From a virus: a stretch of DNA of 48,755 bases. The position numbers were made by a program, and so were the translations under genes. The stretch lies in IMG/VR virus record IMGVR_UViG_3300025151_000059, positions 1 to 48,755 of that record; one strand, given 5' to 3'. Every line of letters begins with the position of its first letter. The first letter of the stretch is position 1. Positions 444 to 30,914 of the stretch are shown piece after piece. The notes under the pieces are model-generated. The model worked only from the letters and a program-made list of their open reading frames with translations. It was not told the origin of the DNA and ran no database searches.

Positions 444-453
444 ATTTCTCACC

Positions 454-915: not shown

Positions 916-949
916 TTTAATTTCTCCTAAAATTTTTCCGGAATTTTTT
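916..949 (-). repeat. AT-rich spacer repeat, copy A
   Basis: On the minus strand the spacer reads roughly TTGAAAAAAATTCCGGAAAA followed by a T run and the next ribosome site. Similar sequence fills the gaps at 1385-1418, 1746-1786 and 2051-2085. The AATTCCGGAA core is palindromic, so it could be a weak terminator or a processing hairpin. Confidence 0.6.
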
Positions 950-1384
950 TCAACCTATTCTTTTAAAATTACCATCTTTGTCAAATTTATATTCGGCATC
1001 TGCTCCGACTATTCGCACTCCATCTTCTGTTTCACCTTCGCTAAGGTCTATGTAAAATGCAGAATCTTCGGGAACATAATCTACATGAATTCTATTAAAA
1101 TTAAATGCGGAGTTTAGAGCAGTTTTCAACCTATCTCTAGTTTCATCATTATAGTCGCTCGCATCAGAAACATGATAATTCAATATCTTCTCTATCATTG
1201 GCTCGATTTCTTTAGCAAATTCATCAGTAGTTTTTTGCCTTTCTCTACCATGTTCCTCCATCGCATCTAGCAATTTCTTTCTTTGTTCAGGAGATAGGGA
1301 TGAAAAATACTTATCTTGTGAATCTGCTGCATATAAATCTTCCAATAATTTTTTGCCGTCTGCTTTCAGTATATCTTTCCACAT
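950..1384 (-). CDS. WK-tag small protein, 144 aa
   Basis: It starts MWKDILKADGKKLLEDLYAAD. The start at 1384 is chosen because a GGGGGA ribosome site lies just upstream; a TTG five codons earlier would overlap it. The first two thirds are charged and helical (SPEQRKKLLDAMEEHGRERQ). The C-terminal third looks like a small beta sheet (FYIDLSEGE, VRIVGADAEYKFD). No family recognised. It is flanked on both sides by copies of the AT-rich spacer repeat. Confidence 0.75.
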   Translation of the reverse strand: MWKDILKADGKKLLEDLYAADSQDKYFSSLSPEQRKKLLDAMEEHGRERQKTTDEFAKEIEPMIEKILNYHVSDASDYNDETRDRLKTALNSAFNFNRIHVDYVPEDSAFYIDLSEGETEDGVRIVGADAEYKFDKDGNFKRIG

Positions 1385-1418
1385 ATAAAAATCCCCCAAA
1401 AATTTTCCGTAATTTTTT
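1385..1418 (-). repeat. AT-rich spacer repeat, copy B
   Basis: On the minus strand: TGAAAAAAATTACGGAAAA, a T run, then GGGGGA and the next start. The repeat begins at or near the stop codon of the upstream gene and ends at the ribosome site of the downstream gene. Confidence 0.6.
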
Positions 1419-1745
1419 TCAAGCAGGAACTATTTCAAATTCTGCTACTTTTGTGTCGGGTTCGCCCCTTTGTTGTGCCATTTGCCCAATAGTCCCTTTC
1501 ATTGGAATATCAGCAGTTGGCCCTGTGCCAAACTCTGTTGCTTGCATAGTCAAATTTTTCTCTATAACAAAATCTTTCAAATGATAAAATGCTTCCGCCT
1601 TACCAGAAGAAGTAATAGGACCTCTTCTTCCTCCTTGTTGTAGGCCGACTTCTTTTTCTCCAAATACTTGAGGACTATATCCTGATAATGGGGGTGTCGT
1701 CTTAACCGTAAAGCCTTGTTGTTTTAGTATATCTTTCCATGTCAT
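1419..1745 (-). CDS. WK-tag small protein, 108 aa
   Basis: It starts MTWKDILKQQG, the most typical form of the shared peptide. The body differs from its neighbours: rich in Gly, Pro and Gln, fewer charges (GLQQGGRRGPITSSGKAEAF), then TADIPMKGTIGQM. Ribosome site GGAGATGATAAC precedes the ATG. No family recognised. A largely unstructured body behind a conserved helical tag would suit a protein that is docked or cleaved, but that is speculation. Confidence 0.75.
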   Translation of the reverse strand: MTWKDILKQQGFTVKTTPPLSGYSPQVFGEKEVGLQQGGRRGPITSSGKAEAFYHLKDFVIEKNLTMQATEFGTGPTADIPMKGTIGQMAQQRGEPDTKVAEFEIVPA

Positions 1746-1786
1746 GTTATCATCTCCTTTTTTTCAAAAAATTATGGCGGATTTTT
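1746..1786 (-). repeat. AT-rich spacer repeat, copy C
   Basis: On the minus strand it reads GAAAAAATCCGCCATAATTTT, then a purine stretch with the GGAGATGA ribosome site. It is the most diverged copy of the spacer family. Confidence 0.5.
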
Positions 1787-2050
1787 TCAAGCATTTGTTC
1801 TAGCCCATCGGGTAAAATCATCAGAAGGCCCTGAAGACATTGTTATCTGAGTAAGGCGGTCAATTTTATTTCCCGTTGCTTGCTCATATCTATCCAATAC
1901 TTCTCCAAGTTGGCTTTTAGGAATAGTGACATTTTTGGACTTATCCGTAAATCCTCCAAATTCAACACTATCTCCTAAATCCTTAGCATAATTAGTGCTT
2001 CCTACTTCCATATTCCTTTCTTGCTTTCTTATTATGTTCTTCCATGTCAT
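1787..2050 (-). CDS. WK-tag small protein, 87 aa
   Basis: It starts MTWKNIIRKQERN and is the first gene of the leftward series. The body contains a short beta-like part (DSVEFGGFTDKSKNVTIP) and a helix (SQLGEVLDRYEQATGNKID). Ribosome site GGATATGATAAC lies before the ATG and closely resembles the one used by the next gene. No family recognised. A promoter for the whole series probably lies in the intergenic region to its right. Confidence 0.75.
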   Translation of the reverse strand: MTWKNIIRKQERNMEVGSTNYAKDLGDSVEFGGFTDKSKNVTIPKSQLGEVLDRYEQATGNKIDRLTQITMSSGPSDDFTRWARTNA

Positions 2051-2428
2051 GTTATCATATCCTTAATTTTCTCAAAAATTTCCCGTAATTTGTTCGTCAC
2101 TTGCGCTTTTTTTTATTTTTTTAATTTACTATTCCCAGAATAAGACTTTTAACTTTAGTTTTTTTAATTTTATTTTAAATTCTGCGTTCTTTTGTATTGT
2201 TTGTATGGCGCAAAGTAATAATTTAAGTTATTCATACAAGTGGCGTTTAACTTCCTGATGTTAAGAGGCTAAAGTAGCATGGTATTTAGTATTTATTCGT
2301 AATTAAGGGGCCGAAAGTCTAACTGCGGGAATTAAACAATCGACTTTTAAAAAAAGATTTTTGATACAAAGCCATATGGTTGTAGGCTTTGATGCAACCT
2401 TATATAATGAAATAAACCATATTAAGAT
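2051..2428. promoter_or_regulatory. Divergent intergenic region with promoter-like AT tracts
   Basis: No convincing gene is present. Going left, a fourth diverged copy of the spacer repeat lies at about 2051-2085, followed by long A/T tracts (2108-2185) that could contain a TATA box for the minus-strand series. Going right, AAAGTC (2316) and GACTTT (2342) can pair around an AAACAATC loop region, and a CCATATGG element (2366-2392) is followed by TTATATAAT at about 2400, a good TATA candidate for the gene at 2429. The promoter roles are inferred. Confidence 0.5.
2366..2392 (+). repeat. CCATATGG palindromic element, copy 1
   Basis: ACAAAGCC, then ATATGGTTGTA, then GGCTTTG. The 8-bp outer arms are inverted repeats and the centre is CCATATGG. 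It lies about 40 bases before a plus-strand gene. Confidence 0.7.
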
Positions 2429-2728
2429 ATGCGCAAAATCACACAAGAGGCTTGCAATGCGTTTGAATGCCAACTTAATTTCAAAAGAGGAAATACTGAG
2501 GTTAAGCGATTTATTAATGATGAAGTGAATATGGAATATAGACTTCATGGAAATTTAATCGCATACAATAACTCAAAGGGAACATTCGTTTCAAATGGTG
2601 GTTGGTCTTCAAACACAACTAAGGAAAGGCTAAACGGTTTAACAGGGGTTCACATTCAACAAAAGGAATTTGTATGGTATCTAAATGGCGAGGCTTGGAA
2701 TGGCGATTGGATAAAGGTAGGAGAGTGA
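2429..2728 (+). CDS. Conserved small phage protein, 99 aa
   Basis: MRKITQEACNAFECQLNFKRGNTEV, followed by YRLHGNLIAY, GGWSSNTTKERLNGL and KEFVWYLNG. This order (R[KI]TQEA...AF, NTEV, LHGN.IA, W.S.TT.ERLN, FVWY) matches a small protein of unknown function that I recognise from many marine phages, especially cyanophages. The start at 2429 keeps the conserved N-terminus. No ribosome site is obvious, so the mRNA may be leaderless. It is preceded by a CCATATGG element and a TATA-like sequence. Confidence 0.75.
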   Translation: MRKITQEACNAFECQLNFKRGNTEVKRFINDEVNMEYRLHGNLIAYNNSKGTFVSNGGWSSNTTKERLNGLTGVHIQQKEFVWYLNGEAWNGDWIKVGE

Positions 2729-2732
2729 TATT

Positions 2733-2882
2733 ATGAGTTTTGCAAATGAATTAAAAATGGTGCATATTACAAGAATTAAGAACAGTGTAATAGACGCTCA
2801 AAATAAAAGAATAGAGGAATTAGAGAAGATAGTAAAGGGCTATATTTTTGCTCATGCTCTTATATCAAAGGCCACTGATTAG
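2733..2882 (+). CDS. Small coiled-coil protein, 49 aa
   Basis: Starts four bases after the preceding stop, with GGAGAGTGATATT before the ATG. The sequence MSFANELKMVHITRIKNSV continues into a heptad-like stretch (DAQNKRIEELEKIVKGYIF). It is probably co-transcribed with the gene at 2429. Function unknown. Reading frame, ribosome site and spacing support it; there is no family match. Confidence 0.6.
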   Translation: MSFANELKMVHITRIKNSVIDAQNKRIEELEKIVKGYIFAHALISKATD

Positions 2883-2901
2883 GGCCCTTCGGGGTTGTCA
2901 C

Positions 2902-2932
2902 ACAAAGCAAACCATATGGTAGTGGCTTTGTA
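2902..2932 (+). repeat. CCATATGG palindromic element, copy 2
   Basis: ACAAAGCAA, ACCATATGGT, AGT, GGCTTTGT. It lies just after the gene pair at 2429-2882 and just before the candidate structured RNA. Confidence 0.7.
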
Positions 2933-2939
2933 GTACCCT

Positions 2940-3323
2940 AAGATGAGAAATCGGGAGCCGTTGCTATATTTCACTAAAGGGGACTACGCTCACTGATGGT
3001 TTCTTCCTACCTACTAATTTAACTAGTATTTCATAGGTAATTGTTAATCATTCCGATTTTGCTGTTAGACCTTTGCTACTTTATTGCTCGTTACTCCGTC
3101 ATTCTCACCGAACCCGAAGTCGCCTAGGATGTTCAACGGGTATTGTGGGTGGAAAAGGAATGGGGACAGATTTGATGACAACAAAAACACAGACAATCTC
3201 TGCTAAGAATACAGCCTGTCCCCTTGAAATAGGAGAGAGAAAATCTTTATCTGTTTAAAACAGGATGCGGGGATGACGGTAGTTAAATGCGCAGATAACT
3301 ACATTAGCCCTTAAGATTTTTTT
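2940..3323 (+). ncRNA. Candidate structured noncoding RNA with 3' T run
   Basis: About 380 bases with no convincing gene but many pairing segments. AAATCGG (2948-2954) can pair with CCGATTT (3053-3059), enclosing TACCTA/TAGGTA (3008-3013 with 3034-3039). GGGGACAG (3162-3169) pairs with CTGTCCCC (3216-3223). GTAGTTA (3279-3285) pairs with TAACTAC (3296-3302). A seven-T run follows at 3317-3323. It does not show the core motifs of archaeal RNase P RNA, SRP RNA or tRNA that I checked. The RNA call is an inference from structure; a 61-residue frame inside it looks unlike real protein. Confidence 0.4.
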
Positions 3324-3345
3324 AATTGCTCCAAACTCTCATGAA

Positions 3346-3516
3346 GTGTGGTTATACTTCGGGTTCTTCTTCAAGAAAATCCCAAATATCTCTATTTGGG
3401 TTATCTTTACTATTCAAGTAAATATCATCTCTATTTTCCCCCTTGTTGTATAACCACATCAAGTGGGAGTCAGTTATGTATCTACTTGTCCACTTGAATA
3501 TCCTAAGTGGACTGAC
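3346..3516. other. Second hairpin cluster between regulatory repeats
   Basis: TGTGGTTATAC (3347-3357) and GTATAACCACA (3448-3458) form an 11-bp perfect inverted repeat. To its right, GTCAGT (3469-3474), CCACTT (3490-3495), AAGTGG (3505-3510) and ACTGAC (3511-3516) nest into a long interrupted hairpin. It could be a structured RNA or a protein-binding site. The strand cannot be decided. Confidence 0.4.
3352..3459 (-). CDS. Possible micro-protein, 35 aa
   Basis: The frame runs MWLYNKGENRDDIYLNSKDN to a strongly acidic end (FLEEEPEV). The composition resembles real proteins of this window, but there is no ribosome site, and the open frame extends upstream without another ATG. The gene would coincide with the 11-bp inverted repeat, so the sequence may instead be selected for structure. 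It could also be the remnant of a longer gene. Confidence 0.25.
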   Translation of the reverse strand: MWLYNKGENRDDIYLNSKDNPNRDIWDFLEEEPEV

Positions 3517-3535
3517 CGAATGAATAGTAAGGTAG

Positions 3536-3652
3536 ACAAAGCCCTACCATATGGTATGAAATATGATATTGCGAAATGTATTGAGTCATATCTTATGAAA
3601 ACCTAGGTTGAGGTTTAATTTCATACCAACCATATGGTATTGGCTTTGTAGA
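3536..3652. repeat. CCATATGG elements, copies 3a and 3b in inverted arrangement
   Basis: The left copy reads ACAAAGCCCTACCATATGG followed by TATGAAAT. The right copy reads ATTTCATACCAACCATATGG followed by TATTGGCTTTGT. The two are inverted relative to each other, so the whole 117-base segment can fold with ACAAAGCC opposite GGCTTTGT and ATTTCATACC opposite GGTATGAAAT. Confidence 0.7.
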
Positions 3653-3674
3653 CCCCACATTTTAAACATGGGGC

Positions 3675-3687
3675 CGAGCAAAGCAAA
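3675..3687. repeat. 13-bp inverted repeat, left arm
   Basis: CGAGCAAAGCAAA lies just past the 3' end of the leftward gene. Its exact reverse complement is at 4289-4301, just before that gene's 5' end. Each arm is next to a CTCGACTAA sequence in the same orientation. Confidence 0.55.
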
Positions 3688-3698
3688 ACTCGACTAAA

Positions 3699-4256
3699 TC
3701 AGCCTTGTGCCTCCTTTTGAGGGGCGGCGTCCTCTTCTATAATTTCGTTTGAGTGGTCATAGTCTCCAATTGTGGAAACTTGGCCATCCCAAACTCCAGC
3801 AGAATAGCGAATCATCATTTGCTTATCTGCGTGGTTCATTAAGTATTCTGAGAATTCTTCAGCAGAATCGAAAGTTCGTGGTACTCCCTTAACTATGCGT
3901 CCATTGTGGCTGATGTCCATAGAACGGCCACGCTGATTCCAATAAGGTAGCATTTCTTTGGCGAAAGCCAAACATGCCTTGGATAATTTCTTTGATTTGA
4001 GGGAATCCCAAGCAACTTGGTTTTCTGCCTCTAGTGTTGGTTGAGAATTGCTCAACTTAGGCGCATCAGGTAGTGCATTGTACTGATTTCTTAGTAGAGT
4101 CCAAACTTCATCTACTTCGGTTTCAGTCTTTGCGGCTCTGATAGCCTCAATCATAGGTGGAATTGTTGCACCTAAGAATCCCAAATTTTTTGGGCCTTTT
4201 TCTGTCACATACGCTTCAATCGTATTTACTTTGTTTGTTAAACTTGCATTCATCAT
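3699..4256 (-). CDS. Hypothetical protein, 185 aa, isolated leftward gene
   Basis: I start the protein at MMNASLTNKVNTIEAYVTEK, where GGAGATGATT lies upstream; the open frame continues to 4382, but that stretch overlaps the CCATATGG element and the inverted repeat. The first half is helical and includes KTETEVDEVWTLLRNQYNAL. The second half has RSMDISHNGRIVKG, then FDSAEEFSEYLMNHADKQMM. The C-terminus is acidic. No family recognised. It is the only leftward gene between the WK-tag cluster and the tail module and has its own promoter region, so it may be regulated separately, for example as an early or regulatory gene. Confidence 0.7.
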   Translation of the reverse strand: MMNASLTNKVNTIEAYVTEKGPKNLGFLGATIPPMIEAIRAAKTETEVDEVWTLLRNQYNALPDAPKLSNSQPTLEAENQVAWDSLKSKKLSKACLAFAKEMLPYWNQRGRSMDISHNGRIVKGVPRTFDSAEEFSEYLMNHADKQMMIRYSAGVWDGQVSTIGDYDHSNEIIEEDAAPQKEAQG

Positions 4257-4288
4257 AATAATCATCTCCAAAAGGTTTGATTGGTCGG

Positions 4289-4301
4289 TTTGCTTTGCTC
4301 G
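4289..4301. repeat. 13-bp inverted repeat, right arm
   Basis: TTTGCTTTGCTCG, the exact reverse complement of 3675-3687. It lies in the 5' flank of the leftward gene at 3699-4256, within its likely promoter region. Confidence 0.55.
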
Positions 4302-4340
4302 ACTAACCTTAGACCTGTGACCGAATAATAAGGTATTGCT

Positions 4341-4376
4341 ACAAAGCCACCAATACCATATGGTTGTATGCTTTGT
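4341..4376. repeat. CCATATGG palindromic element, copy 4
   Basis: ACAAAGCCACCAATA, CCATATGG, TTGTATG, CTTTGT. It lies between divergent genes (3699-4256 leftward and 4407 rightward), a typical operator or promoter position. Confidence 0.7.
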
Positions 4377-4406
4377 TATCACCCTACTTAATTGTAAAAT
4401 AAAAAT

Positions 4407-4613
4407 ATGGGCATGAAGTCAGATATACCGGAAGAAGATAAAAGAACGATAGATGCACAGATAGTGAAAACATGTGCATTGCATAAAAGAATGAGCGATG
4501 AGGACTTCATACTTATTTTGATGGAAATATGTAAGGGGGCGTTTATTTTAGGACAAAAAAACGCAATTGTGCAAATAGGAGAGGAATTGAAAAAGGGGGT
4601 TAGAGTACTATGA
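4407..4613 (+). CDS. Small helical protein, 68 aa
   Basis: MGMKSDIPEEDKRTIDAQIV continues as a helical protein with a hydrophobic stretch (DFILILMEICKGAFILG) too polar to be a clear membrane segment. Starts are possible at 4407 or 4413. No ribosome site is evident, suggesting a leaderless mRNA; the upstream sequence is very A/T-rich. The gene overlaps the next by four bases (ATGA), so the pair is one unit. No family recognised. Confidence 0.65.
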   Translation: MGMKSDIPEEDKRTIDAQIVKTCALHKRMSDEDFILILMEICKGAFILGQKNAIVQIGEELKKGVRVL

Positions 4614-4870
4614 ATAATAATATTATTGATTGGGAAAGGGTAGTAAAGGATTACAAGAAACAGTATGACGGAGATGAATGGATTCATGAATATGTGGATA
4701 GTTTAGTTCCTATTTATTACGGGGACATATTGTACGCCTTTAACGATATGACCTTTGAAATAGCAGAACATCATATCGGCATACCGATATGGGAGGTTAT
4801 GACTGAATGTATCTATAATGAGTTTTATAATTCATTCATGGAAGCATGGACCCCATTTGAAGAAGAATGA
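4610..4870 (+). CDS. Hypothetical acidic protein, 86 aa
   Basis: MNNNIIDWERVVKDYKKQYD, then many aromatic and acidic residues (YVDSLVPIYYGDILYAF, EFYNSFMEAWTPFEEE). The ATG overlaps the stop codon of the preceding gene. Function unknown. A hairpin-rich stretch begins eight bases after its stop. Confidence 0.65.
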   Translation: MNNNIIDWERVVKDYKKQYDGDEWIHEYVDSLVPIYYGDILYAFNDMTFEIAEHHIGIPIWEVMTECIYNEFYNSFMEAWTPFEEE

Positions 4871-4877
4871 TTATCCT

Positions 4878-5013
4878 CGGTTTTCCCAACCGTTGTAGGC
4901 GCATTATTCGCTTCTACGAAAAAGTAAGGCGAAATAATGTGTTTCTGCCCCCTCTAGGGTTTAGGCCCTAGGGGGTGGCTACCACCGGGGTTGCTAAAAC
5001 AAAGCAAACAACC
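4878..5013. ncRNA. Candidate structured RNA: chain of hairpins
   Basis: Five stems follow one another: CGGTT/AACCG (4878-4892); CATTATTCGC with GCGAAATAATG (4902-4939); CCCCCTCTAGGG with CCCTAGGGGG (4948-4975); GGTGG/CCACC (4974-4986), which competes with the previous stem; and GGTTG/CAACC (4989-5013) enclosing ACAAAGC. Competing stems are typical of switches and attenuators. No known RNA family is recognised and no gene is present. It could also be a compound terminator for the genes at 4407-4870. Confidence 0.4.
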
Positions 5014-5039
5014 TAAAACTAATATAATCCCCTCTTTTG

Positions 5040-5405
5040 AAAAAGGTATATTTTTAATTCTCTGTATATTAATTTAAAGTACACATATGGTTCAATTGGC
5101 TCTTATACTATATAGGGAATATAATATGATATATTTTATGGTATAGGATATAACATGTACGGGGTCAGTCTCACGGTTTGGTGATGAGACTGAAAATGAG
5201 ACTGAAAGGATAGGCTTTCAGTACATCATTTATTATTGTATATTCTCATAATCTCATAATCTCATATCATATATCTCTCTCCCACCCCTATTTCTCTCTA
5301 TATCTCTCTCTCTTGGGCGATGAGACATGAGACATGAGACTGAAGGGGCAAAGTTGGTCGCAGTGGTGCGTTTCTCTTTGTCTCATGGTTTGTCTCATGG
5401 GTGTA
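5040..5405. other. Candidate replication origin: AT-rich region plus TGAGAC iterons
   Basis: A highly A/T-rich stretch (5040-5160) is followed by about ten copies of TGAGAC or its complement. TGAGACTGA occurs at 5185, 5197 and 5335, and inverted near 5165. TGAGACA is in tandem at 5321 and 5328. TTTGTCTCATGG occurs twice in tandem near 5377 and 5389. TCTCATAA repeats three times in tandem (5244-5267). A pyrimidine tract of TCTCTC lies at 5273-5314. Tandem iterons beside an easily melted region are the usual look of a viral origin. No protein-coding gene is convincing here. The origin role is inferred. Confidence 0.5.
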
Positions 5406-5570
5406 AAGTAAAGGATTTTTTACGGGGGGCGAAGTTTTATTGGTAATAAATATGTAAATATTAAAGAGGTTCATATTTGATAAAGGGATTATTTGTCTTA
5501 TCATTATGTGTGTAATAAATACGGACTTCATGATAAAGGGCTTTATTAGATGGTGCAAAAGTAGGTAAAT

Positions 5571-6047
5571 ATGAACTGGGAAGAATTCGTAGAAGTCGTG
5601 GAATCGTATGTGGAATTAGAAGCAGAGCAACTTGGCGGTATTGTTCAAGTGGTAGGTCTGTTACTAGATGCAGGTAAGAATAATGAAAAGGAAAGAAAGA
5701 ATGCTGAAGCGTCTGTTAGGGGCTTGCTAAAGGGTAGAGAGGGTTCTCCCTTTAGACAGGGCGTAAGGACGACTAAGCCTATCTCCGTAAAGGTTAGTAT
5801 AGACAAAGTAGGTAAGATGGTAGAAGAGGCTTCTATTGTTTATTTTAATATGGTTCCTAGTGGTCTTCACTTGAAGCATGGTAAGAGTGGAGGCGGAGGC
5901 TTTGCTAGTGCAGAAGAATATGCTAAGGTTGAAAAAAATAAGGTGATGACAATGCTCCATAGAAGACATACTGATGGTCTGTGGGATGGCACTTTAGAAG
6001 GGCTTGGCTATGGAGATAAGAATGGGCTTTTTTCTGAAGAGGAATAA
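5571..6047 (+). CDS. Hypothetical protein, 158 aa, beside the iteron region
   Basis: MNWEEFVEVVESYVELEAEQ begins a helical, acidic N-terminal third. A basic middle follows (NEKERKNAEASVRGLLKGRE, RQGVRTTKP), then a Gly-rich segment (HGKSGGGGFASAEEYAKVEK) and an acidic end. The basic and Gly-rich parts could bind nucleic acid. As the first gene after the iterons it is a reasonable candidate for an origin-binding or regulatory protein, but this rests on position only. Confidence 0.7.
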   Translation: MNWEEFVEVVESYVELEAEQLGGIVQVVGLLLDAGKNNEKERKNAEASVRGLLKGREGSPFRQGVRTTKPISVKVSIDKVGKMVEEASIVYFNMVPSGLHLKHGKSGGGGFASAEEYAKVEKNKVMTMLHRRHTDGLWDGTLEGLGYGDKNGLFSEEE

Positions 6048-6297
6048 GAATTGAGATAGAAGTGTAACTATTTTTTAACATAATGTTACCGAATAAAGGC
6101 CACACCTAGTTATAAGTGGGGAGGGGGTCTAGGGGTATCTTGTCAAGTTTGAAAAATACCCGATGCAATATATTTTGTCATCAATAAACTAGAAATAGGT
6201 TTTTCAAAAAGGGCAATTTAACCGAGAGGGTAGGGGTCGAGCAAAGGGGCCGTTTACGACAAAAAATATGCTCCCCCTATCCTCACAGGTGATTCAA
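6048..6297. other. Intergenic region, no gene seen
   Basis: About 250 bases between genes. It holds short purine-rich runs (GTGGGGAGGGGGTCTAGGGG near 6117) and a GTCGAGCAAAGG sequence near 6237 that resembles half of the inverted repeat at 3675 and 4289. There is no convincing frame or strong hairpin. It probably contains the promoter for the long rightward run. Confidence 0.4.
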
Positions 6298-6387
6298 ATG
6301 AAATTCAAGCAGATATATCCTAAGACATATAGACTTCTACAATTAGCAGAAGTTTTGTTAGTAATATATCTAATTAGTTTAATATAA
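6298..6387 (+). CDS. Possible single-pass membrane micro-protein, 29 aa
   Basis: MKFKQIYPKTYRLLQLAEVL, then VIYLISLI. A basic start followed by about 16 hydrophobic residues predicts one membrane segment. AGGTGATTCAA, a good ribosome site, precedes the ATG. It is too short for a family match. The ribosome site is the main support. Confidence 0.4.
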   Translation: MKFKQIYPKTYRLLQLAEVLLVIYLISLI

Positions 6388-6480
6388 TCCAGTCGGTTTA
6401 TGCAGTAAAAACAACAAAGGGCTTAAGCAAATAGTAGTGCCTCCAAACTATGAAGTTGTTTTCCGACAGGAGGGATTATT

Positions 6481-6708
6481 ATGATAGAATGGATTAAAAG
6501 GTTCTTTACCAAGCGTGAGATAAGTAAGTCTGACTTGCCTAAATGTAGTAAGTGTGGTCTTCTATCTACCAAGAAAATAGAGATAAGATTTATACAGGGC
6601 GAAAGTGTTTCGTCAATATCGGGCAATTGCTGTGACAGTTGCGAAGATGATTTAAGCAGGGAGTTTAATCCGTTATGGATTCCTCCCTTAGTTTTTAAGG
6701 AGAAATAA
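6481..6708 (+). CDS. Zinc-ribbon protein, 75 aa
   Basis: MIEWIKRFFTKREISKSDLP is followed by a zinc-ribbon pattern: CSKCG near residue 22, then CCDSC near residue 50. The two CxxC pairs lie 24-25 residues apart. A strong GGAGGG ribosome site precedes the ATG. The ribbon could bind nucleic acid or protein; partners are unknown. It opens the long rightward run of closely packed genes. Confidence 0.7.
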   Translation: MIEWIKRFFTKREISKSDLPKCSKCGLLSTKKIEIRFIQGESVSSISGNCCDSCEDDLSREFNPLWIPPLVFKEK

Positions 6709-6710
6709 AT

Positions 6711-6953
6711 ATGGAAGAAATAATAGAATATTGTGGATATAAAAATGCCTTTGACTTAATCAAAGACCACTCGAAAGAAGAAGACCTAGCGACCTTGTTA
6801 GAGGACTTAGTTAATAGTCCCGAAGATGCAGTTGATTTTGTTAGGGAAGAAGTTGAAAGAATAGCAACCGATATTTTTGATTGGGTAGACCATGAGAAGA
6901 TAAAGGCTGATGCAGATGAAGAATCCTATCAAAGATATAGGGATGGTGACTAA
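6711..6953 (+). CDS. Acidic helical protein, 80 aa
   Basis: MEEIIEYCGYKNAFDLIKDH continues almost entirely helical and very acidic (EEDLATLLEDLVNSPEDAVD). It starts two bases after the preceding stop and abuts the next gene. Strong acidity is common in small phage proteins that mimic DNA or bind host enzymes, but nothing specific supports that here. Function unknown. Confidence 0.65.
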   Translation: MEEIIEYCGYKNAFDLIKDHSKEEDLATLLEDLVNSPEDAVDFVREEVERIATDIFDWVDHEKIKADADEESYQRYRDGD

Positions 6954-7397
6954 ATGACTAGATATTATCACGCAACACCTAAAGAAAATTTAGAATCAAT
7001 TCTACGACACGGAATACAGGTAAAGTTCGAAGGAGTATATTGTTCGACAAACGAAAAAACTGCCGCTCGCTGGATTTGTTTTTCAAGAATGGGATGTAAA
7101 GAAATCATAACAATACCATTCGACAGACCTCAAGGTGATAAAAGGATGTCATACGGGCAGGACCATTCGCCTATCTTAACTAAATTACTTGGCGTTGATG
7201 AAGAAGGCGCATCATTTATTTCGAGCGAAACAATACCGCCTAAAGATATTGATATAGATAACATCATGGTTTGGCAAAACACATTCTATACAAAGGAAGC
7301 AGAAATAGCAATGCTCAAGATGGTGAAAAATAATCAAGACTTGTTAATGAAAGCAGGTGCAGAAGAAATGAAGAAAGAAGTAGGAGAGGATGATTGA
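6954..7397 (+). CDS. ADP-ribosyltransferase-fold protein (KptA/DarT-like N-terminus)
   Basis: The N-terminus YYHATPKENLESILRHGI (residues 4-21), followed by GVYCSTNEKTAARWICF (27-43), matches the start of the ART fold: a strand with the NAD-binding H-x-T (H6, T8), a helix with ILxxGI, then a strand and helix with an Ala-rich turn. The same layout is found in RNA 2'-phosphotransferase KptA, DarT and DUF4433-type enzymes. A catalytic Glu cannot be assigned by eye. If active, it would use NAD to modify or repair RNA, DNA or protein. Phage ARTs often modify host enzymes. The fold assignment is moderately sure; the substrate is unknown. Confidence 0.55.
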   Translation: MTRYYHATPKENLESILRHGIQVKFEGVYCSTNEKTAARWICFSRMGCKEIITIPFDRPQGDKRMSYGQDHSPILTKLLGVDEEGASFISSETIPPKDIDIDNIMVWQNTFYTKEAEIAMLKMVKNNQDLLMKAGAEEMKKEVGEDD

Positions 7398-7398
7398 T

Positions 7399-7671
7399 AT
7401 GAGCAGGGTAAAAAGATTAGGCGTATTAACTAGACAAGAAGAGAATTGGCTAGATACTTTAGAAAGAAGTTCAATATATACAAGAACCCCTTTTTCTGCT
7501 ACGGAAGCATCTAGAGCAATAGCGGTGACGCCTAACAAAAAGGGTCACATATTGAAGATGGTCCCTAACCCTAGAAAGATGGCCTACATTCTTAGAAAGA
7601 GTCAGAGATATGTTAGGTGGAACAAACCTAAAATCAACAATAAAACTACAGTATATTGGGTGAAAAAATGA
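7399..7671 (+). CDS. Small winged-helix-like protein, 90 aa, paralog A
   Basis: I start at MSRVKRLGVLTRQEENWLDT because GGAGAGG is well spaced for the ATG at 7399 and abuts an earlier ATG at 7390. The layout is a helix, an ATEASRAIA helix, a basic loop PNKKGHI, a helix with MAYILRKS, and a final strand VYWVKK. The same order occurs in the genes at 15520 and, more loosely, 30135. It resembles small winged-helix DNA-binding proteins common in tailed viruses of archaea, where a basic loop precedes the recognition helix. A DNA-binding role is likely but not shown. Confidence 0.55.
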   Translation: MSRVKRLGVLTRQEENWLDTLERSSIYTRTPFSATEASRAIAVTPNKKGHILKMVPNPRKMAYILRKSQRYVRWNKPKINNKTTVYWVKK

Positions 7672-7883
7672 CTAAATACACAGAAGAAAATATTGGCGAT
7701 ATAGTAACTATTGAAAGAGATAGTGGCACATTAATTGATGAACGAATTGTAATGGTTTATTGTCAAGTTTGTGCGGCTAGATATATTGGCCCCATTAGAG
7801 AAGCAGGTGGTTTCTTAGGAGGCCATGAAGTTTTTCACACATGGGAATTTAAAGTAGAAATGGAAACAGCGTTGGAGGCATAA
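7668..7883 (+). CDS. Hypothetical protein, 71 aa
   Basis: MTKYTEENIGDIVTIERDSG, then VMVYCQVCAARYIGPIREAG, a single CxxC. GGGTGA overlaps the end of the preceding gene and lies just before the ATG at 7668, which decides this start over a TTG four codons earlier. The later part includes HEVFHTWEFKVEM. With only one CxxC and two His (HEVFH), a zinc site is possible. Function unknown. Confidence 0.65.
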   Translation: MTKYTEENIGDIVTIERDSGTLIDERIVMVYCQVCAARYIGPIREAGGFLGGHEVFHTWEFKVEMETALEA

Positions 7884-7885
7884 AA

Positions 7886-8152
7886 ATGGCAGAAGTAATA
7901 TGGACAGAAGGAAGGGGATTGAAGTATGGATTACCCGACCAAGATTGGCCTACTAGAAAACTACTAACAGTTTATCCAACTAAACATGGTTGGAGAGTAA
8001 TGGTTTGTTGGGGAGATACTTGGGGCCACTTAGTAATTAAAACGGGTGAAGATTTTCACACTTGCTTTAGAGAAGCAATTACTAGGGCGATTAAAGATGG
8101 TTGTCCTAAAGAATGGCTACCCGGACCTTTAGACGGAGTTGATTCAGAATGA
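7886..8152 (+). CDS. Hypothetical Trp-rich protein, 88 aa
   Basis: MAEVIWTEGRGLKYGLPDQD, with many Trp residues (WPTRKLL, HGWRVMVCWGDTWGHLV, EWLPG). It is predicted to be a small alpha/beta domain ending with a helix (FHTCFREAITRAIKDG). It starts two bases after the preceding stop and overlaps the next gene by four. No family recognised. Confidence 0.65.
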   Translation: MAEVIWTEGRGLKYGLPDQDWPTRKLLTVYPTKHGWRVMVCWGDTWGHLVIKTGEDFHTCFREAITRAIKDGCPKEWLPGPLDGVDSE

Positions 8153-8496
8153 GTTTAGGAAAAGAGTTTGTACCTAGTCTTAGAAGAAGCGGTAGCGTTG
8201 CCATGAAGGTAAATGTTAGACCAATTATTATGAGTAGAAATGAAGCCATTTCTTCTCTAGTAGAAAAGATAGGATGGAGAGGAATTCCATACATTCATAA
8301 TCTAAACAAGGGTAAAACCAAAGCCCAATTATCTATGGCGGCATCTTATTTGGCCTACTATGATTATTTTGAACATCAGCCACAATCTAGAGAGAATTGT
8401 GAAGAATACTACGAAGACCAACTAGAAGTTTGGGATGCTTGTGCTTATTTAATTGACAAGCACTTTCCTGAATTCAATTATTTAAAAGGTGAATGA
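8149..8496 (+). CDS. Hypothetical protein, 115 aa
   Basis: MSLGKEFVPSLRRSGSVAMK begins a basic N-terminal part, followed by a helical, aromatic and acidic region (AASYLAYYDYFEHQPQSREN, YYEDQLEVWDACAYLIDKHF). The ATG overlaps the preceding stop. The basic-then-acidic pattern is unusual, but no family is recognised. Confidence 0.65.
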   Translation: MSLGKEFVPSLRRSGSVAMKVNVRPIIMSRNEAISSLVEKIGWRGIPYIHNLNKGKTKAQLSMAASYLAYYDYFEHQPQSRENCEEYYEDQLEVWDACAYLIDKHFPEFNYLKGE

Positions 8497-8497
8497 A

Positions 8498-9121
8498 ATG
8501 AATATATTTGCACTATCAGAATGTCCAATAAAATCAGCACAACAAATGCTGGATAAACATGTAGTAAAAATGCCTACTGAAAGTTGTCAGATGTTACACA
8601 CCAATTCCCTTTATTTTTTATATTGGGAATGCCACGGAAGAGAACCTTCTCTAAAAGAACTGAAGGCCTTCCACAAAGAATCGCATTTTTCATATTTTAT
8701 GAAACCTGCTATGCTTAACCACCCTAGCACAATTTGGGCTAGACAAAACAAAGCAAATTACATGTGGTTATACAATCATGCCCTTGCCCTCTGTAAAGAA
8801 TATACTTTCAGATATGGTAAGATTCATGGTACGGAAAAAAGAATCTTGGATAGTTTTACCTTTTCCTATGAAGATGAAGACTTAACTCCGGTGACTATTG
8901 CTATGGCTGACCAATACAGAATCCCTAAAGAAAAACACACTTGGGGTTTTGTGATTAAAAGTTATCAGCAGTATTATTTAGAAGGCAAATGGAAATTCGC
9001 TTCTTGGAAAAAGAACCGAACTCCTACTTGGTGGCCTAAAGACCAATACAAGAAAATGAAGAATAAGGAAATATTGCGTTTCAATAAATTATGGAATGCT
9101 AATTTGGAGATGATTGAATGA
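8498..9121 (+). CDS. Conserved phage protein with MNIF...DKHVVKM signature, 207 aa
   Basis: MNIFALSECPIKSAQQMLDK then HVVKMPTESCQML, later NHPSTIWARQNKANYMWLYN and HALALCKEYTFRYGK, and finally QQYYLEGKWKFASWK with PTWW. This order of motifs matches a protein widespread in marine T4-like and other phages, with no experimentally known function that I can recall. I start at 8498 because GGTGA precedes it and the family begins MNIF. Conserved His, Lys and Trp residues suggest an enzyme. The family match is from memory. Confidence 0.75.
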   Translation: MNIFALSECPIKSAQQMLDKHVVKMPTESCQMLHTNSLYFLYWECHGREPSLKELKAFHKESHFSYFMKPAMLNHPSTIWARQNKANYMWLYNHALALCKEYTFRYGKIHGTEKRILDSFTFSYEDEDLTPVTIAMADQYRIPKEKHTWGFVIKSYQQYYLEGKWKFASWKKNRTPTWWPKDQYKKMKNKEILRFNKLWNANLEMIE

Positions 9122-11557: not shown

Positions 11558-11758
11558 ATGATAAGTTTAACAATTTTGAATGAAACAGGACATACTTCGC
11601 TATCCCTTGAGGCTAGTGAAGTTATAGAACAGATTAATACCCATCCTACAGATTGGGTATTCATTGATGGAGAAATGGTAACAAGAGAAAACCTTTCTTC
11701 AGTCAATTGGGACGATGTTGATTCAGTTGTTTTAACTCCGGCTATCGTCGGTGGTTGA
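11558..11758 (+). CDS. Ubiquitin-like MoaD/ThiS/SAMP-type protein ending in Gly-Gly, 66 aa
   Basis: The 66 residues follow the beta-grasp plan of MoaD, ThiS and archaeal SAMPs. Strand ISLTIL (2-7), strand TSLSLE (13-18), helix ASEVIEQINTHP (19-30), strand WVFIDGEMV (33-41; compare valNgeiV in ThiS), then VDSVVLTPAIVGG (54-66), ending exactly in Gly-Gly. In the family an E1-like enzyme adenylates this Gly-Gly tail, which then either carries sulfur as a thiocarboxylate or is conjugated to lysines. The start at 11558 is set by GAGGTGA; a GTG at 11549 overlaps that site. An E1-like gene (14370) and a JAMM protease gene (14921) follow on the same strand. Fold and tail are well supported; conjugation versus sulfur transfer is open. 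Confidence 0.8.
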   Translation: MISLTILNETGHTSLSLEASEVIEQINTHPTDWVFIDGEMVTRENLSSVNWDDVDSVVLTPAIVGG

Positions 11759-11781
11759 GACAATTTCAACAGGAAATTATA

Positions 11782-11815
11782 AGGGGAGGGTAGAAAACTA
11801 CCCTCTCCTGTTTTT
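11782..11815 (+). terminator. Strong hairpin terminator after the ubiquitin-like gene
   Basis: AGGGGAGGGTAG (11782-11793) pairs with CTACCCTCTCCT (11798-11809) around an AAAA loop, and five T follow after a G. The pairing is 12 bp with one or two mismatches. It is one of the clearest terminators in the window, ending the ubiquitin-like transcript 24 bases after its stop. Confidence 0.75.
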
Positions 11816-11830
11816 CTTGGAGGTTTTTCG

Positions 11831-12097
11831 ATGCGGTATTTTGATAATGCAGAAGAGTGTAAAATCGTGATAGAGTCTTTTATGAAAGATTTGAGTCCTC
11901 TAGATAGAACGAAATTAAATGTCGTTTTTCAGAACTTGGATGGGAAGTCCGATAAAGAAAAACAATGGACTATGGTAGCCATGTTTAGAAAATGCCTATG
12001 GAGTATTCCCGAAGCGGTTGAAAGGGGATTCGCTGATTGGTTAATGCAAGAATTACCAAACAGGAAAGCCGCACTACAATATCATGGGGAATTATGA
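11831..12097 (+). CDS. Hypothetical helical protein, 88 aa
   Basis: MRYFDNAEECKIVIESFMKD, then DRTKLNVVFQNLDGKSDKEK and a helix with MVAMFRKCLWSIPEAVERGF. All-helical by eye. TTGGAGG lies before the ATG, immediately after the terminator, so this gene probably begins a new unit. It sits between the ubiquitin-like gene and the E1/JAMM genes. No family recognised, and it has no visible E2-type active-site motif. Confidence 0.65.
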   Translation: MRYFDNAEECKIVIESFMKDLSPLDRTKLNVVFQNLDGKSDKEKQWTMVAMFRKCLWSIPEAVERGFADWLMQELPNRKAALQYHGEL

Positions 12098-12264
12098 TGA
12101 AAGATAAAGACCCTGATTACACCCAAAGCAATTGGTCTTACAAAAAAAGAATTGCGACCAAATGCAGAATATGTGGTAAGCAGTTAATCTTACCCGAAGA
12201 AATGAAAAAAGAAGTACACGCACAGTGCGATAATAATTTAAATAGTAATACCTATATGATGTGA
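12094..12264 (+). CDS. Small zinc-finger protein, 56 aa
   Basis: MMKDKDPDYTQSNWSYKKRI, then CRICGKQLILPEEM and EVHAQCDNN. The Cys pattern CxxC ... H..C suggests a single treble-clef or ribbon finger. The ATG overlaps the preceding stop (ATGATGA). Earlier in-frame codons from 12037 lie inside the previous gene and are not needed. Function unknown; possibly an adaptor. Confidence 0.6.
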   Translation: MMKDKDPDYTQSNWSYKKRIATKCRICGKQLILPEEMKKEVHAQCDNNLNSNTYMM

Positions 12265-12268
12265 TAGA

Positions 12269-13543
12269 ATGATAGTAAGAATAAGTAATGGAAGTAATGA
12301 ATCGTTTTCTACAGAAATAAATATACAGAGAATCGGAGACAATTTCGCAATAGATTTTGCTCGCTCCTACAATATTCGACCCGATTGGAATGCAAAGGGC
12401 GACCCTCTACTAAAAGGGATTTCTGATTTTTGGTCTAGTATTATAAGAGGTACAACTAAAAATTATGGGAAGTTTGAATGTGTTATCGAGATTGCTGACT
12501 ATCCTGTTCATGTTAAGAAGGACAAGGCGTATTCAATTAATGGGTCAAAAATCGGACTAAAGACTATGTGTATGGTGTTAGCAAAACTAACATATGCTTC
12601 TTGTTTAGAAGTTAATAGAAACAATAGTAAAATGACATCAATATTTATTGATGCCATGTCTGAACCGGAACAGGTTTCCTATGTAATAGAAAATCGTGCG
12701 CCGTTCTTTTTCTATGAAGATTATACAAGGGTAGATGTTAGACTGAATGTTGAGCCTATTGGTCGTAAAAGATATGCGATAGAAATATCCGATTCTGTTT
12801 GGGGAGAGATAAGCCAAAAGGATTTAATCACATTTGTTAATTCTTATAGAGAAAATAAGAAGGCAGGTTCTTGGAGTAGATTAAGCCCTAAAGGTTTGTA
12901 TGAAAAACTTATGGGAGAAGCCCCCTCCGAATCTGAATTAAAATTAATGAAAGCGTTTCTTTCGCAAAATAGGACTAAGGATATTGTAGAAAGGCGAGCA
13001 AAGGAATTAGTGCGAGAAACCTGCGAAAAACTACCGGATAGGTTCTTCTATCATAAGATAGAAGTAGAACCTGAAAACGATGAACGGTGCGCTACTATAG
13101 AAGTAGACGGGAAAAAGCACATGGTTTCCAAAGAAAATAACGAATGGTTATTTGTCAGAGGGAAACTATACGATTGGAAAATCAGAAAGAATTCTAATTC
13201 GCAAAGTAGGCAATCCGTCGGAACATATGTCTATAATAAAGTAGTCCTAAGAGAAAAAACCGGGCAGGTTAAAAACGAATTTGGTGAGTGGGAAGATACC
13301 TTTGAACAAGTGCATAAGTATCAGTGGGTAGGCCCGATTTGTGTGGACAATTTATCTTTTAGTGGGGCAACATCAGTCGGCGACCAAATGGTAGCAAGAG
13401 CATATGCCTTTTTGAATGATATGGTAACAGTGGAAATTGTTAATACTATCGGGGGCTATTTAAATCAAAAAGATATGTCGGAACATAGATTAAATTTCGA
13501 AGAGTTAATAGATAGTGATGTGAATAAATTATGTCTTGCGTAG
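12269..13543 (+). CDS. Unknown 424-aa protein within the ubiquitin-like island
   Basis: MIVRISNGSNESFSTEINIQ starts a long alpha/beta protein with no motif I recognise. Notable parts are a Cys near residue 70 (YGKFECVIEIADYP), a helical block LSPKGLYEKLMGEAPSESEL, a charged helix KDIVERRAKELVRETCEKLP, then a beta-rich part (ATIEVDGKKHMVSKENNEWL, VGTYVYNKVVLREKTGQ) and a WVGPICVDNLSFSGATSVGD segment. It overlaps the TFB gene by 13 bases, so the two are probably co-translated. It could be a transcription or replication partner, or part of the modifier system. No function is claimed. Confidence 0.7.
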   Translation: MIVRISNGSNESFSTEINIQRIGDNFAIDFARSYNIRPDWNAKGDPLLKGISDFWSSIIRGTTKNYGKFECVIEIADYPVHVKKDKAYSINGSKIGLKTMCMVLAKLTYASCLEVNRNNSKMTSIFIDAMSEPEQVSYVIENRAPFFFYEDYTRVDVRLNVEPIGRKRYAIEISDSVWGEISQKDLITFVNSYRENKKAGSWSRLSPKGLYEKLMGEAPSESELKLMKAFLSQNRTKDIVERRAKELVRETCEKLPDRFFYHKIEVEPENDERCATIEVDGKKHMVSKENNEWLFVRGKLYDWKIRKNSNSQSRQSVGTYVYNKVVLREKTGQVKNEFGEWEDTFEQVHKYQWVGPICVDNLSFSGATSVGDQMVARAYAFLNDMVTVEIVNTIGGYLNQKDMSEHRLNFEELIDSDVNKLCLA

Positions 13544-14373
13544 AATGTGGAAATGATAAATTTAGTTTTGATGAAGTAATGGGAGAAAGAATCTGCGAAG
13601 AATGTGGCTTGGTAGAAATAACCGAATTGTTTGAACAGAGCGTTTCCCAATATAATCAATCGGGAGAATTAGTTAGAGAATCTACATTTAGAAATACTCT
13701 AGGAACCACTAATCGTAACAGATATGATGTCTCTGAAAGCAACATACAAACAGGATTGGTTTATTGTAATCTAGTACTATCTTCCATAGCACCAAACAAC
13801 CCACTTAGGGATAGAGTAGAAGAATGTTACATATCTCTATTTAGAGGACATGTGTTTAGTAACAAATATAGTTATGAAAATAGGGCTACTGCTTTAGTCT
13901 ATTATGTTTTGAAAGAAAACGGAATAGCGATTAAGATGAGCGAAGTTAGAAAGGAATTCGAATGTGATATGCGTAAGGTGAATAAACTTACTAGGATAAT
14001 AGCGAAGCACTTTGGGAACTCTAGTGTTTATGCTAGAAATAATATAGTGTCTCTTTTGGATAAGACTTCTAGACAAGTAAGCGATACAGCAGAATTCATA
14101 ACTCTCTGTCAGGAAATGCACATCATGGTTAATCCTATTTTAGAAGCAAACAACTTTACCAAAGGAAGAACTTATTGTGCCGCTATTTGTTTAATCGTGG
14201 CGAGCGCAAATTTAATGCAGATAAAACAAAGCGACTTAGCAAAGAATACAGGATATAGTATTTCCACAATCCGTATTCAAGCGAAGAAGATTTTACAGAT
14301 GTTAGGCTACGATAGTCTAAAAGAAATTAGTGGAAAAATAATTGAAAATAAAAATAAGAAGGAATTACAATGA
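13531..14373 (+). CDS. tfb: Transcription initiation factor IIB homolog (TFB)
   Basis: The N-terminal zinc ribbon has C3, C6 (SCVECGNDKFSF) and C22, C25 (ICEECGLV), the classic TFIIB spacing. A linker with FRNTLGTTNRNRYDVSES follows, then two cyclin-like repeats: roughly residues 75-165 (SYENRATALVYYVLKENGIA, MRKVNKLTRIIAKHF) and 175-270 (FTKGRTYCAAICLIVASANL, KNTGYSISTIRIQAKKILQM with a helix-turn-helix). At 280 aa it is near the normal length. TFB bridges TBP and RNA polymerase at archaeal promoters, so a viral copy can favour viral promoters. It overlaps its neighbours on both sides. It is the clearest evidence for an archaeal host. Confidence 0.92.
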   Translation: MSCVECGNDKFSFDEVMGERICEECGLVEITELFEQSVSQYNQSGELVRESTFRNTLGTTNRNRYDVSESNIQTGLVYCNLVLSSIAPNNPLRDRVEECYISLFRGHVFSNKYSYENRATALVYYVLKENGIAIKMSEVRKEFECDMRKVNKLTRIIAKHFGNSSVYARNNIVSLLDKTSRQVSDTAEFITLCQEMHIMVNPILEANNFTKGRTYCAAICLIVASANLMQIKQSDLAKNTGYSISTIRIQAKKILQMLGYDSLKEISGKIIENKNKKELQ

Positions 14374-14924
14374 GAAAGGTATTAATTATAGGCGCAGGTG
14401 GTATTGGAAGTTTTCTAATTCCCCTACTAAAAAAGACGGGGCTGTATTCTATTACAGTAGCAGACCCCGACATCGTAGAGAATAAAAATCTACCCTACCA
14501 AAACTATGAAAAGGTAGATGTAGATAAAAACAAAGCACAGGTTATGTATGAGAGATATGAATTAGAAAGTATGGTTCCTCATAAGATTCTAACACTTGGA
14601 CAAATGAAAGGATATAATTTGATTATATCTTGTGTAGATAATCTGAGCCTACGGAGAACATTATATCGTAGCAATCTAACTTGGTTAGATTTGAGAGCGC
14701 AAGGCCGCAATGCAGCGTTTATCTCTTCAGATTCTAGTCCTGAAATGTGGGACACAATGTTGGCTGGCCCTGACGGAAGTTTTTCCTGTCAAGGAAATTC
14801 TTGGGATGGAAGCAATAAAAATGTTCATTTTATGCAAGTGGCAATTGCTGGAATGGCGGCTGAATGGATTCAGCGTTGGTTCAACAAAGAAGATGTTGGG
14901 CTTTTTAAGGTGGTAAATGTATGA
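14370..14924 (+). CDS. E1-like (ThiF/MoeB/UbaA family) adenylating enzyme, minimal form
   Basis: A Rossmann nucleotide-binding start LIIGAGGIGSFL (G8, G10, G11, G13), acidic residues VADPDIVENKNL (D32, D34, N40), DKNKAQ (52-57) and IISCVDNLSLRR (D90) follow the E1/ThiF order. The helix VHFMQVAIAGMAAEWIQRWF (152-171) matches the family's crossover helix. C140 (GSFSCQG) is the best candidate for the thioester cysteine. At 184 aa it is shorter than MoeB (about 250), lacks the usual two CxxC zinc pairs and has PYQ where NLxRQ is expected. It would adenylate the Gly-Gly tail of the protein at 11558. It overlaps the TFB and JAMM genes by four bases each. Confidence 0.85.
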   Translation: MRKVLIIGAGGIGSFLIPLLKKTGLYSITVADPDIVENKNLPYQNYEKVDVDKNKAQVMYERYELESMVPHKILTLGQMKGYNLIISCVDNLSLRRTLYRSNLTWLDLRAQGRNAAFISSDSSPEMWDTMLAGPDGSFSCQGNSWDGSNKNVHFMQVAIAGMAAEWIQRWFNKEDVGLFKVVNV

Positions 14925-15523
14925 CTAAAATAATGGGTGATGATTTAGGCCCCGATTATAAAGTCGGGATTGTGTCTGAATGGGAATTAAATGCTGAAAT
15001 TACAGAGAAATTCCTATCAGAAATATGGAAGGCTTCTACAGAAATACTTCCAAAACTAGAAGTACAGGTTGTTATTGATAATAACGACAGACTACACATT
15101 AGTAGTGGTACTGCTGGATATGTTGATTTTCAAGTGGACCCTGTAGGAATGAAACTTCCTATTAAGTGTTGGATTCATACACATCCATTTGGTTCTGCTT
15201 ATTTTAGTGGTACAGATATTAGTACGGTTTCTATTTGGGAGCCTATGATGAAATCTGCAATAGTATTAGGCGGAGAGGGCCACTATGGTAGTTGGAATAA
15301 TAGAAGTCCACAACAGTTGGTAATTTATAGGAACCATGATTTTGAAAGAGTGCAAACTTGGGGCAACAAATCTGTAGGCTATTCTAATGAACCCGTAAAT
15401 TATTACGAAATGGTTGATTATGAAAGGCTTAGAGAAATTCTGTTAGACTACGATTTTATTACTGAGACTAATCTCAATAAAGCGGAAGAATTACTCCGTA
15501 TAGAAACAGAGGGAGAGGAATGA
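14921..15523 (+). CDS. JAMM/JAB (MPN) metalloprotease
   Basis: WIHTHPFGSAYFSGTD (84-99) is an exact JAMM motif, HxH-x7-S-x2-D: H86, H88, S96, D99. A Glu near residues 20-22 (IVSEWEL) could be the catalytic base. Strands VQVVIDN and a Gly-rich AIVLGGEGHYGS fit the MPN fold. JAMM enzymes cleave the isopeptide bond after a Gly-Gly tail (Rpn11, archaeal HvJAMM1) or trim the modifier. The gene is joined to the E1-like gene through ATGA overlap, so the two are made together. At 200 aa it lacks any NlpC/P60 domain, unlike the JAB-containing phage tail protein K, which favours a modifier role over tail assembly. Confidence 0.85.
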   Translation: MTKIMGDDLGPDYKVGIVSEWELNAEITEKFLSEIWKASTEILPKLEVQVVIDNNDRLHISSGTAGYVDFQVDPVGMKLPIKCWIHTHPFGSAYFSGTDISTVSIWEPMMKSAIVLGGEGHYGSWNNRSPQQLVIYRNHDFERVQTWGNKSVGYSNEPVNYYEMVDYERLREILLDYDFITETNLNKAEELLRIETEGEE

Positions 15524-27242: not shown

Positions 27243-27247
27243 GGACA

Positions 27248-30905: not shown

Positions 30906-30914
30906 ATGAAAGTA
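30906..30914 (+). repeat. 9-bp direct repeat at PolB split, right copy
   Basis: ATGAAAGTA, identical to 28961-28969, here supplying the start codon of the C-terminal polymerase part. Confidence 0.8.

Follow-up and report, generated by a model that had tools for sequence, protein, structure and literature searches.

Why should a virus carry what look like a ubiquitin-like modifier (UBL), an E1 enzyme to activate it and a JAMM protease to process it? The question is raised by genes at positions 11558-15523 of the IMG/VR virus record IMGVR_UViG_3300025151_000059, of which the 48,755 nt analysed here are called the window; a sequence-only reading had seen in them a minimal counterpart of the haloarchaeal SAMPylation machinery. 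The answer to which the evidence points is a different one. The genes probably form a virus-encoded ubiquitin-like modification module of four parts, namely a UBL, a dedicated E1, a dedicated JAMM and a protein with an invariant cysteine (the C-protein), and the module appears to be sister to one residing in the chromosomes of the host:

11558..11758, + strand: UBL, a 66-residue ubiquitin-like modifier of predicted beta-grasp fold, with C-terminus ...PAIVGG and then stop
12269..13543, + strand: C-protein (P424), 424 residues, its C-terminal domain holding the invariant C358; a candidate transfer or adaptor module
14370..14924, + strand: E1, a predicted 184-residue ThiF-type UBL-activating enzyme with an invariant C140
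14921..15523, + strand: JAMM, a 200-residue JAMM/MPN+ metalloprotease (E47, H86, H88, S96, D99)

Are UBL, E1 and JAMM what they appear to be? All lie where the sequence-only reading had placed them and bear the motifs it had described, including the 4-nt overlap (ATGA) of E1 stop and JAMM start, which is kept in virus and hosts. The UBL gene has GAGGTG directly upstream of its ATG at 11558, and the AlphaFold2 (AF2) model of its product (pLDDT 87.4) has the element order E-E-H-E-E-H-E. Among its best VIA-align matches are MoaD, ThiS and TtuB (Z 5.9-5.1 over 56-65 residues, root-mean-square deviation (rmsd) 2.5-3.5), along with SUMO and ubiquitin (Z 5.9-4.6 for all named folds); the modelled fold is thus the beta-grasp of GG-tailed ubiquitin-like modifiers, as had been proposed. 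The window UBL alone has no match in Pfam, 3 of 46 family members match Pfam ThiS (best 8e-4), a sequence search of the PDB gave no significant match and Foldseek with the model gave none at E <= 0.001. The E1 matches Pfam ThiF at 57.1 bits (cut-off 28.1; 1.9e-15) and bears the motifs GAGGIG, D32, D34, K55 and D90 and a candidate catalytic C140; G8/10/11/13, D32, D34, K55, D90 and C140 are invariant across 46-68 viral and 12 cellular homologues, giving the viral E1 the GxGxxG, DxD, Lys, Asp and Cys of the E1/ThiF superfamily. The JAMM carries the motif H86-x-H88-x7-S96-x2-D99, and these residues, like E47, do not vary across 58 viral and 9 host JAMMs. At 18.6 bits the window protein falls under the Prok-JAB cut-off of 25, and 55 of the 58 relatives match that family, so that the earlier assignments of both enzymes held in profile searches. 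A JAMM profile matches AMSH-LP, an AMSH-like protease of the PDB (9e-5), while the AF2 model (pLDDT 83.5) finds its best VIA-align match in Pyrococcus JAMM1, both on its own and with SAMP2 (Z 8.8, rmsd 3.1 over 105-106 residues), and matches AMSH at Z 8.4, as expected of an MPN fold. A short acidic tail, often EEE, ends most viral JAMM proteins (at about 15510-15520 in the window).

What might the protease do for the modifier? A Gly-Gly pair at or near the C-terminus is invariant in all 55 distinct viral UBLs; the exact Gly-Gly ending singled out by the sequence-only reading, true of the window, is shared by just 7 of the 55 (the window clade and a few others), and in the other 48 a further 1-3 residues follow (CY, NY, SY, QY, HY, SC, NC, SL, Q, Y, C, GNQ and others). 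Precursors so extended must be trimmed before activation, and this would be an obvious task for the JAMM. A precedent exists in CsRpn11, a JAMM whose cut in the ubiquitin precursor of Caldiarchaeum falls precisely after Gly-Gly (PMC6043591). The window clade has lost the tail yet kept the JAMM, which would fit a second, deconjugating role for the protease.

Is the module a fixed possession of these viruses or an accident of one contig? Scans of viral contigs returned 62 loci with the JAMM and 40 with the E1, amounting to 86 distinct contigs. UBL, E1 and JAMM lie together on one strand in 61 further IMG/VR contigs of the 86, bearing out the claim that the virus owns all three, and in the remaining contigs the locus ends short of the missing gene's place. 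An independent anchor was provided by the DNA ligase, an unrelated gene: where a locus had 9 kb or more of upstream sequence, the order C-protein, TFB-like gene (described below), E1, JAMM recurs in 31 of 31, with the UBL absent only where the locus stops before its place, and this makes the cassette a constant component of the virus group. The predicted beta-grasp fold, the invariant Gly-Gly and the joint occurrence of the genes all withstood the refuting conditions that the sequence-only reading had set for itself. Synonymous changes dominate, with ratios of non-synonymous to synonymous change (dN/dS) of 0-0.07 for the UBL, 0.12-0.27 for the E1 and 0.10-0.20 for the JAMM, and of the 409 stop-to-stop frames of at least 40 residues in the window, one ends in GG and one has HxHx7SxxD. 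Selection, conservation, co-occurrence and motif rarity together rule out chance or spurious open reading frames (ORFs). The fixed early-region position, beside TFB and chaperonin in every ligase-anchored contig, would also suit old core virus genes that have lost any part in conjugation and now serve some other purpose, such as replication or the processing of virion proteins; the invariance of the E1 and JAMM catalytic residues and of the UBL Gly-Gly argues against such a fate, which we regard as highly improbable. In a phage collection the UBL and JAMM had no match, and the E1 matched only distant ThiF proteins from bacterial phages.

To which virus, and to which host, does the module belong? 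The window holds TFB, a Cpn60 chaperonin, an ATP-dependent DNA ligase, the RFC small subunit, a sliding-clamp-like gene and a split family B polymerase. PolB, RFC, TFB and chaperonin were found by search, the clamp weakly (26502, 8.5e-5), and the ligase, kept in relatives, was assigned by sequence reading. The same set (split PolB, RFC-S, clamp, ATP ligase, TFB, chaperonin) characterises the Magrovirales, viruses of Poseidoniales (PMC10768690), and by this match the window is a magrovirus-type tailed virus of Poseidoniales. The polymerase occupies two ORFs, 27239-28972 and 30906-31790, some 1.9 kb apart, and 8489-9121 encodes a pyrimidine-dimer glycosylase family protein (Pyr_excise 5.9e-7). 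Elsewhere in the group, the 184.7-kb IMGVR_UViG_3300021958_000021 holds two differing copies of the cassette (L024/L072 and L102), perhaps two genomes assembled together, and two magrovirus-like contigs (L104 and L105; NZMJ01000073 and NZMJ01000151) have been placed in the bin of a Maricaulis metagenome-assembled genome (MAG). Ubiquitin, ThiF and JAB go unmentioned in PMC10160649, PMC8651126, PMC10768690, PMC12999244 and PMC5332604, with annotation in other magrovirus papers possible.

Do the hosts possess anything of the kind? A genome scan that used the E1 alignment found that Poseidoniales MAGs carry an E1 about 28-33% identical to that of the window over the full alignment. In some hosts (L115, L116, L119) UBL, E1 and JAMM adjoin one another among ordinary chromosomal neighbours; in others UBLs stand in tandem elsewhere on the chromosome, as di- (G002, G010), tri- (G005) or tetra-UBLs (G088), every unit ending in GG, with a short linker behind it and a short tail behind the last (in the di-UBL of G003, AG takes the place of GG). 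At least two UBLs share one frame in 43 of the 68 genomes with listed UBL places. In some genomes the genes are fused, either as UBL-UBL-E1 (G103, G134, G036) or as E1-JAMM (G069, G076), which ties the three proteins to one pathway:

L191 964-1698, L192 1267-2100, L263 320-1177: host polyubiquitin-like ORFs of 2, 3 and 4 UBL units with internal Gly-Gly
L258 1042-2292 (- strand), L259 369-1619, L260 480-1760: UBL-UBL-E1 fusion ORFs
L261 696-1901, L262 619-1929: E1-JAMM fusion ORFs

Among 146 genomes of the host order, the JAMM is present in 71, the UBL in 69 and the E1 in 69; the full set occurs in 62, a partial set in 14 and none of the genes in 70, so that each pair co-occurs with a Fisher p < 1e-26 when relatedness is ignored. 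A tree of 81 E1s resolves one viral clade (support 99/95) and one host clade (100/93) with long branches between them, which indicates an old exchange with no sign of repeated recent capture; recent transfer from host to virus is unsupported by these two clades. On the sequence relationships, the viral module would be an ancient sister of a poly-UBL system encoded in Poseidoniales chromosomes, and it is this host system, often with tandem modifiers, and not the SAMP system of Haloferax, that is its true counterpart. The host system of poly-UBL, E1, JAMM and C-domain proteins is undescribed in the literature searched.

The orthology of the viral and host systems, and the absence of the latter from about half of its order's genomes, also invite an explanation in terms of conflict: the host cassette would be a defence or regulatory UBL system which the virus counters or hijacks, its JAMM stripping conjugates, its UBL and E1 competing as decoys, or the machinery being redirected. 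In bacteria, anti-phage defence draws on UBL-type conjugation (PMC10097602, for CBASS). We consider such a contest rather unlikely as the reason for the genes: the whole set, beyond the protease alone, is under purifying selection in the virus, the host E1 lineages look vertically inherited with the viral clade apart on long branches, and the host operon neighbours are, by sequence reading, enolase-like, aminotransferase-like and B12-type ribonucleotide-reductase-like, with no defence genes recognised.

Could the module instead carry sulfur? In such a scheme the E1 would thiocarboxylate the UBL to supply sulfur for tRNA, cofactor or nucleotide modification, and the JAMM would trim the modifier in the manner of QbsD and QbsE. 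The UBL fold is indeed closest to MoaD, ThiS and TtuB, and the one- and two-residue UBL tails (CY, NY, SY) resemble that of QbsE. Prokaryotic UBL-E1-JAB sets have, moreover, been found in sulfur and siderophore operons (PMC1779556). The hosts, however, are otherwise provided for: a separate canonical ThiS-family protein was found in 11 of 11 genomes tested and a separate long canonical E1 in 9 of 11, both being present in the two cassette-less genomes tested, while G001 and G002 showed no E1 besides that of the cassette, possibly through MAG incompleteness. The cassette is thus not the housekeeping sulfur carrier, and the tRNA-thiolation option of the sequence-only reading is weakened with it. 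Pfam tests of window ORFs brought out neither a rhodanese nor a thiolase, and tandem poly-UBLs and proteins combining a zinc ribbon with an invariant cysteine suit protein modification better; a sulfur-carrier role is accordingly improbable.

If proteins are modified, what takes the place of an E2? The three-gene system was less minimal than supposed, for the C-protein, encoded between UBL and E1 in these viruses, belongs to it. C358 stands in the motif IC[IV]D...GD...ND and is invariant over 46 viral C-protein sequences. The C-terminal domain (C-domain) matches proteins adjoining the host E1-JAMM genes, these being its top non-viral matches, with hhalign values of 78% and 67% for the viral domain against host proteins. 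A profile of the host proteins found the domain in 76 of the 146 host-order genomes, these being 73 of the 76 that hold at least one cassette gene against 3 of the 70 that hold none, and its cysteine is present in 23 of 23 aligned examples, Methanoperedens included. By eye, a zinc-ribbon-like CxxC/CxxH pattern opens several of the host proteins; L346, L347, L348 and L353 are Poseidoniales proteins of about 800 residues, without a Pfam family, which join a zinc-ribbon-like N-terminus to the invariant-Cys C-domain. In Methanoperedens-type archaea an E1 relative lies directly behind a C-domain protein of 714-743 residues (L111 5758-8582, L117 5761-8486), and in the genomes with this pair no UBL was found. 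Searches of Pfam and of PDB profiles gave no match for the C-protein or its C-domain. An identity as E2 was suggested to the eye by the ICxD motif and the placing of the cysteine; Pfam, PDB profiles and hhalign lent it nothing. The C-protein may nevertheless replace an E2, in a transfer, ligase or receptor role.

Two further features lie beside these genes:

11781..11815, + strand: predicted terminator-like hairpin (about -22 kcal/mol), followed by TTTTTC
13531..14373, + strand: TFB-like transcription factor (Zn_Ribbon_TF 3.8e-6), between C-protein and E1

The hairpin and its T-run, directly 3' of the UBL, suggest that the UBL may terminate its own transcript; a hairpin of at least -6 with a T-rich run follows 29 of 46 UBL relatives, in a count without shuffle control. 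The TFB is paired with C-protein and E1 also in two Thalassarchaeaceae-type host contigs (L120 and L114; TFIIB 3e-29), whose clusters also hold an AAA+ ATPase, and gene order thus hints that it is a member of the system. In the Thalassarchaeum contig L120, two UBLs, three C-domain proteins, TFB, AAA+ ATPase and E1 cluster within 271-8203.

How, then, would the modification module work? In relatives with 1-3 extra residues the JAMM would mature the UBL by cleaving after Gly-Gly, the window UBL being born mature; the E1 would adenylate the UBL tail and possibly then take it on C140; the UBL would be attached to lysines of host or viral proteins, perhaps by way of the C-protein instead of an E2; and the JAMM would take it off again. 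From adenylation and conjugation through C-protein transfer to deconjugation, as for the targets and the benefit to the virus, these steps are what we infer. Several points weigh against so full a reading. The module is known here from genes and models; the window UBL itself requires no maturation, and the agreement of its fold with known ones is modest (Z about 5-6). Neither an E2 nor an E3 was recognised, and hhalign of the C-domain with three E2s gave a probability of at most 1.6%, leaving E2-likeness unsupported. The genome counts are uncorrected for relatedness or MAG incompleteness. The E1 is short, beginning at the Rossmann motif, and its cysteines are C88 and C140 only, so that the zinc cysteines (CxxC pairs) of MoeB-type enzymes are missing. 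In ThiF and MoeB enzymes a conserved Arg finger in the motif NLxRQ is the norm; viral E1s have Tyr at this position and host E1s His. Adenylation is for these reasons an assumption, and the membership of the SAMPylation system claimed by the sequence-only reading is not supported by the E1 features, since UbaA, like MoeB, has the zinc cysteines and the Arg. Placement in the E1 superfamily rests on the profile match, so the deviation at Arg weakens nothing but the case for a canonical mechanism.

A bolder proposal, which we put forward tentatively, is that hosts and magroviruses share a new class of conjugation, with a hitherto unrecognised invariant-Cys domain standing in for the E2 (perhaps also the E3) and a host modifier made as polyubiquitin-like tandem precursors set against a single-unit, orthogonal viral one, by which the virus re-tags the cell or disarms the host's own system. 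With a complete UBL, E1 and JAMM fixed in them, these viruses, an abundant family infecting ocean archaea, would be the first lineage of viruses to encode ubiquitin-like activation and processing in full, as far as the literature searched goes, and an undescribed poly-UBL system would be present in around half of the genomes sampled from a very abundant order of surface-ocean archaea. The natural gene fusions supply ready test constructs, and the system bears on the E2-less origin of ubiquitin-like conjugation and on whether viruses and hosts contend over protein tagging in archaea.

Where does the module stand among known systems? The nearest is that of the Poseidoniales hosts, which has orthologous UBL, E1, JAMM and C-domain protein, the 4-nt E1-JAMM overlap, and the invariant GG, SCQ, HxH...S..D and C-domain Cys; it differs in proteins that are 24-36% identical to the viral ones, in UBLs that are often tandem, in gene fusions, in a separate E1 clade and, in Thalassarchaeaceae-type operons, in an additional AAA+ ATPase. 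Two candidates are set aside. The virus-borne TAPI-TAPK of lambda and T1 share a JAB protease and a UBL whose C-terminus is Gly (PMC1779556), but are tail-assembly proteins without an E1, and this type is ruled out by the genes around the module and by its having an E1; as for CBASS type II or Bil, the Rossmann part of the E1 is all that the PADLOC E1-E2 models match, and there is no E1-E2 fusion. The Caldiarchaeum operon with CsRpn11 (PMC6043591) shares a JAMM cleaving the UBL precursor after Gly-Gly, a cleavage predicted here, but has a true E2, a RING-type E3 and a ubiquitin far nearer that of eukaryotes. With haloarchaeal SAMP, UbaA and JAMM1 the module shares an archaeal GG-tailed beta-grasp modifier, a single E1, a single JAMM and the lack of a classical E2; unlike them, the virus and host system has a short E1 without zinc cysteines, processing tails, poly-UBLs and a C-domain partner, in hosts that possess, besides it, a ThiS and in most cases a canonical E1. 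Among bacteria, the E1-JAB-Ubl operons of types 6a-6e (Iyer et al. 2006, PMC1779556) likewise have a rhodanese-less E1 adjoining or fused to JAB, a single or tandem GG-type Ubl (poly-Ubl in type 6e) and accessory Cys or Zn-finger proteins, whereas the present system, compared with them outside any tree, is archaeal and viral, without a recognisable E2/RWD and with a new C-domain. By analogy, it would resemble the archaeal SAMP systems and the bacterial E1-JAB-Ubl operons in its working, as a family common to virus and host with a new partner domain.

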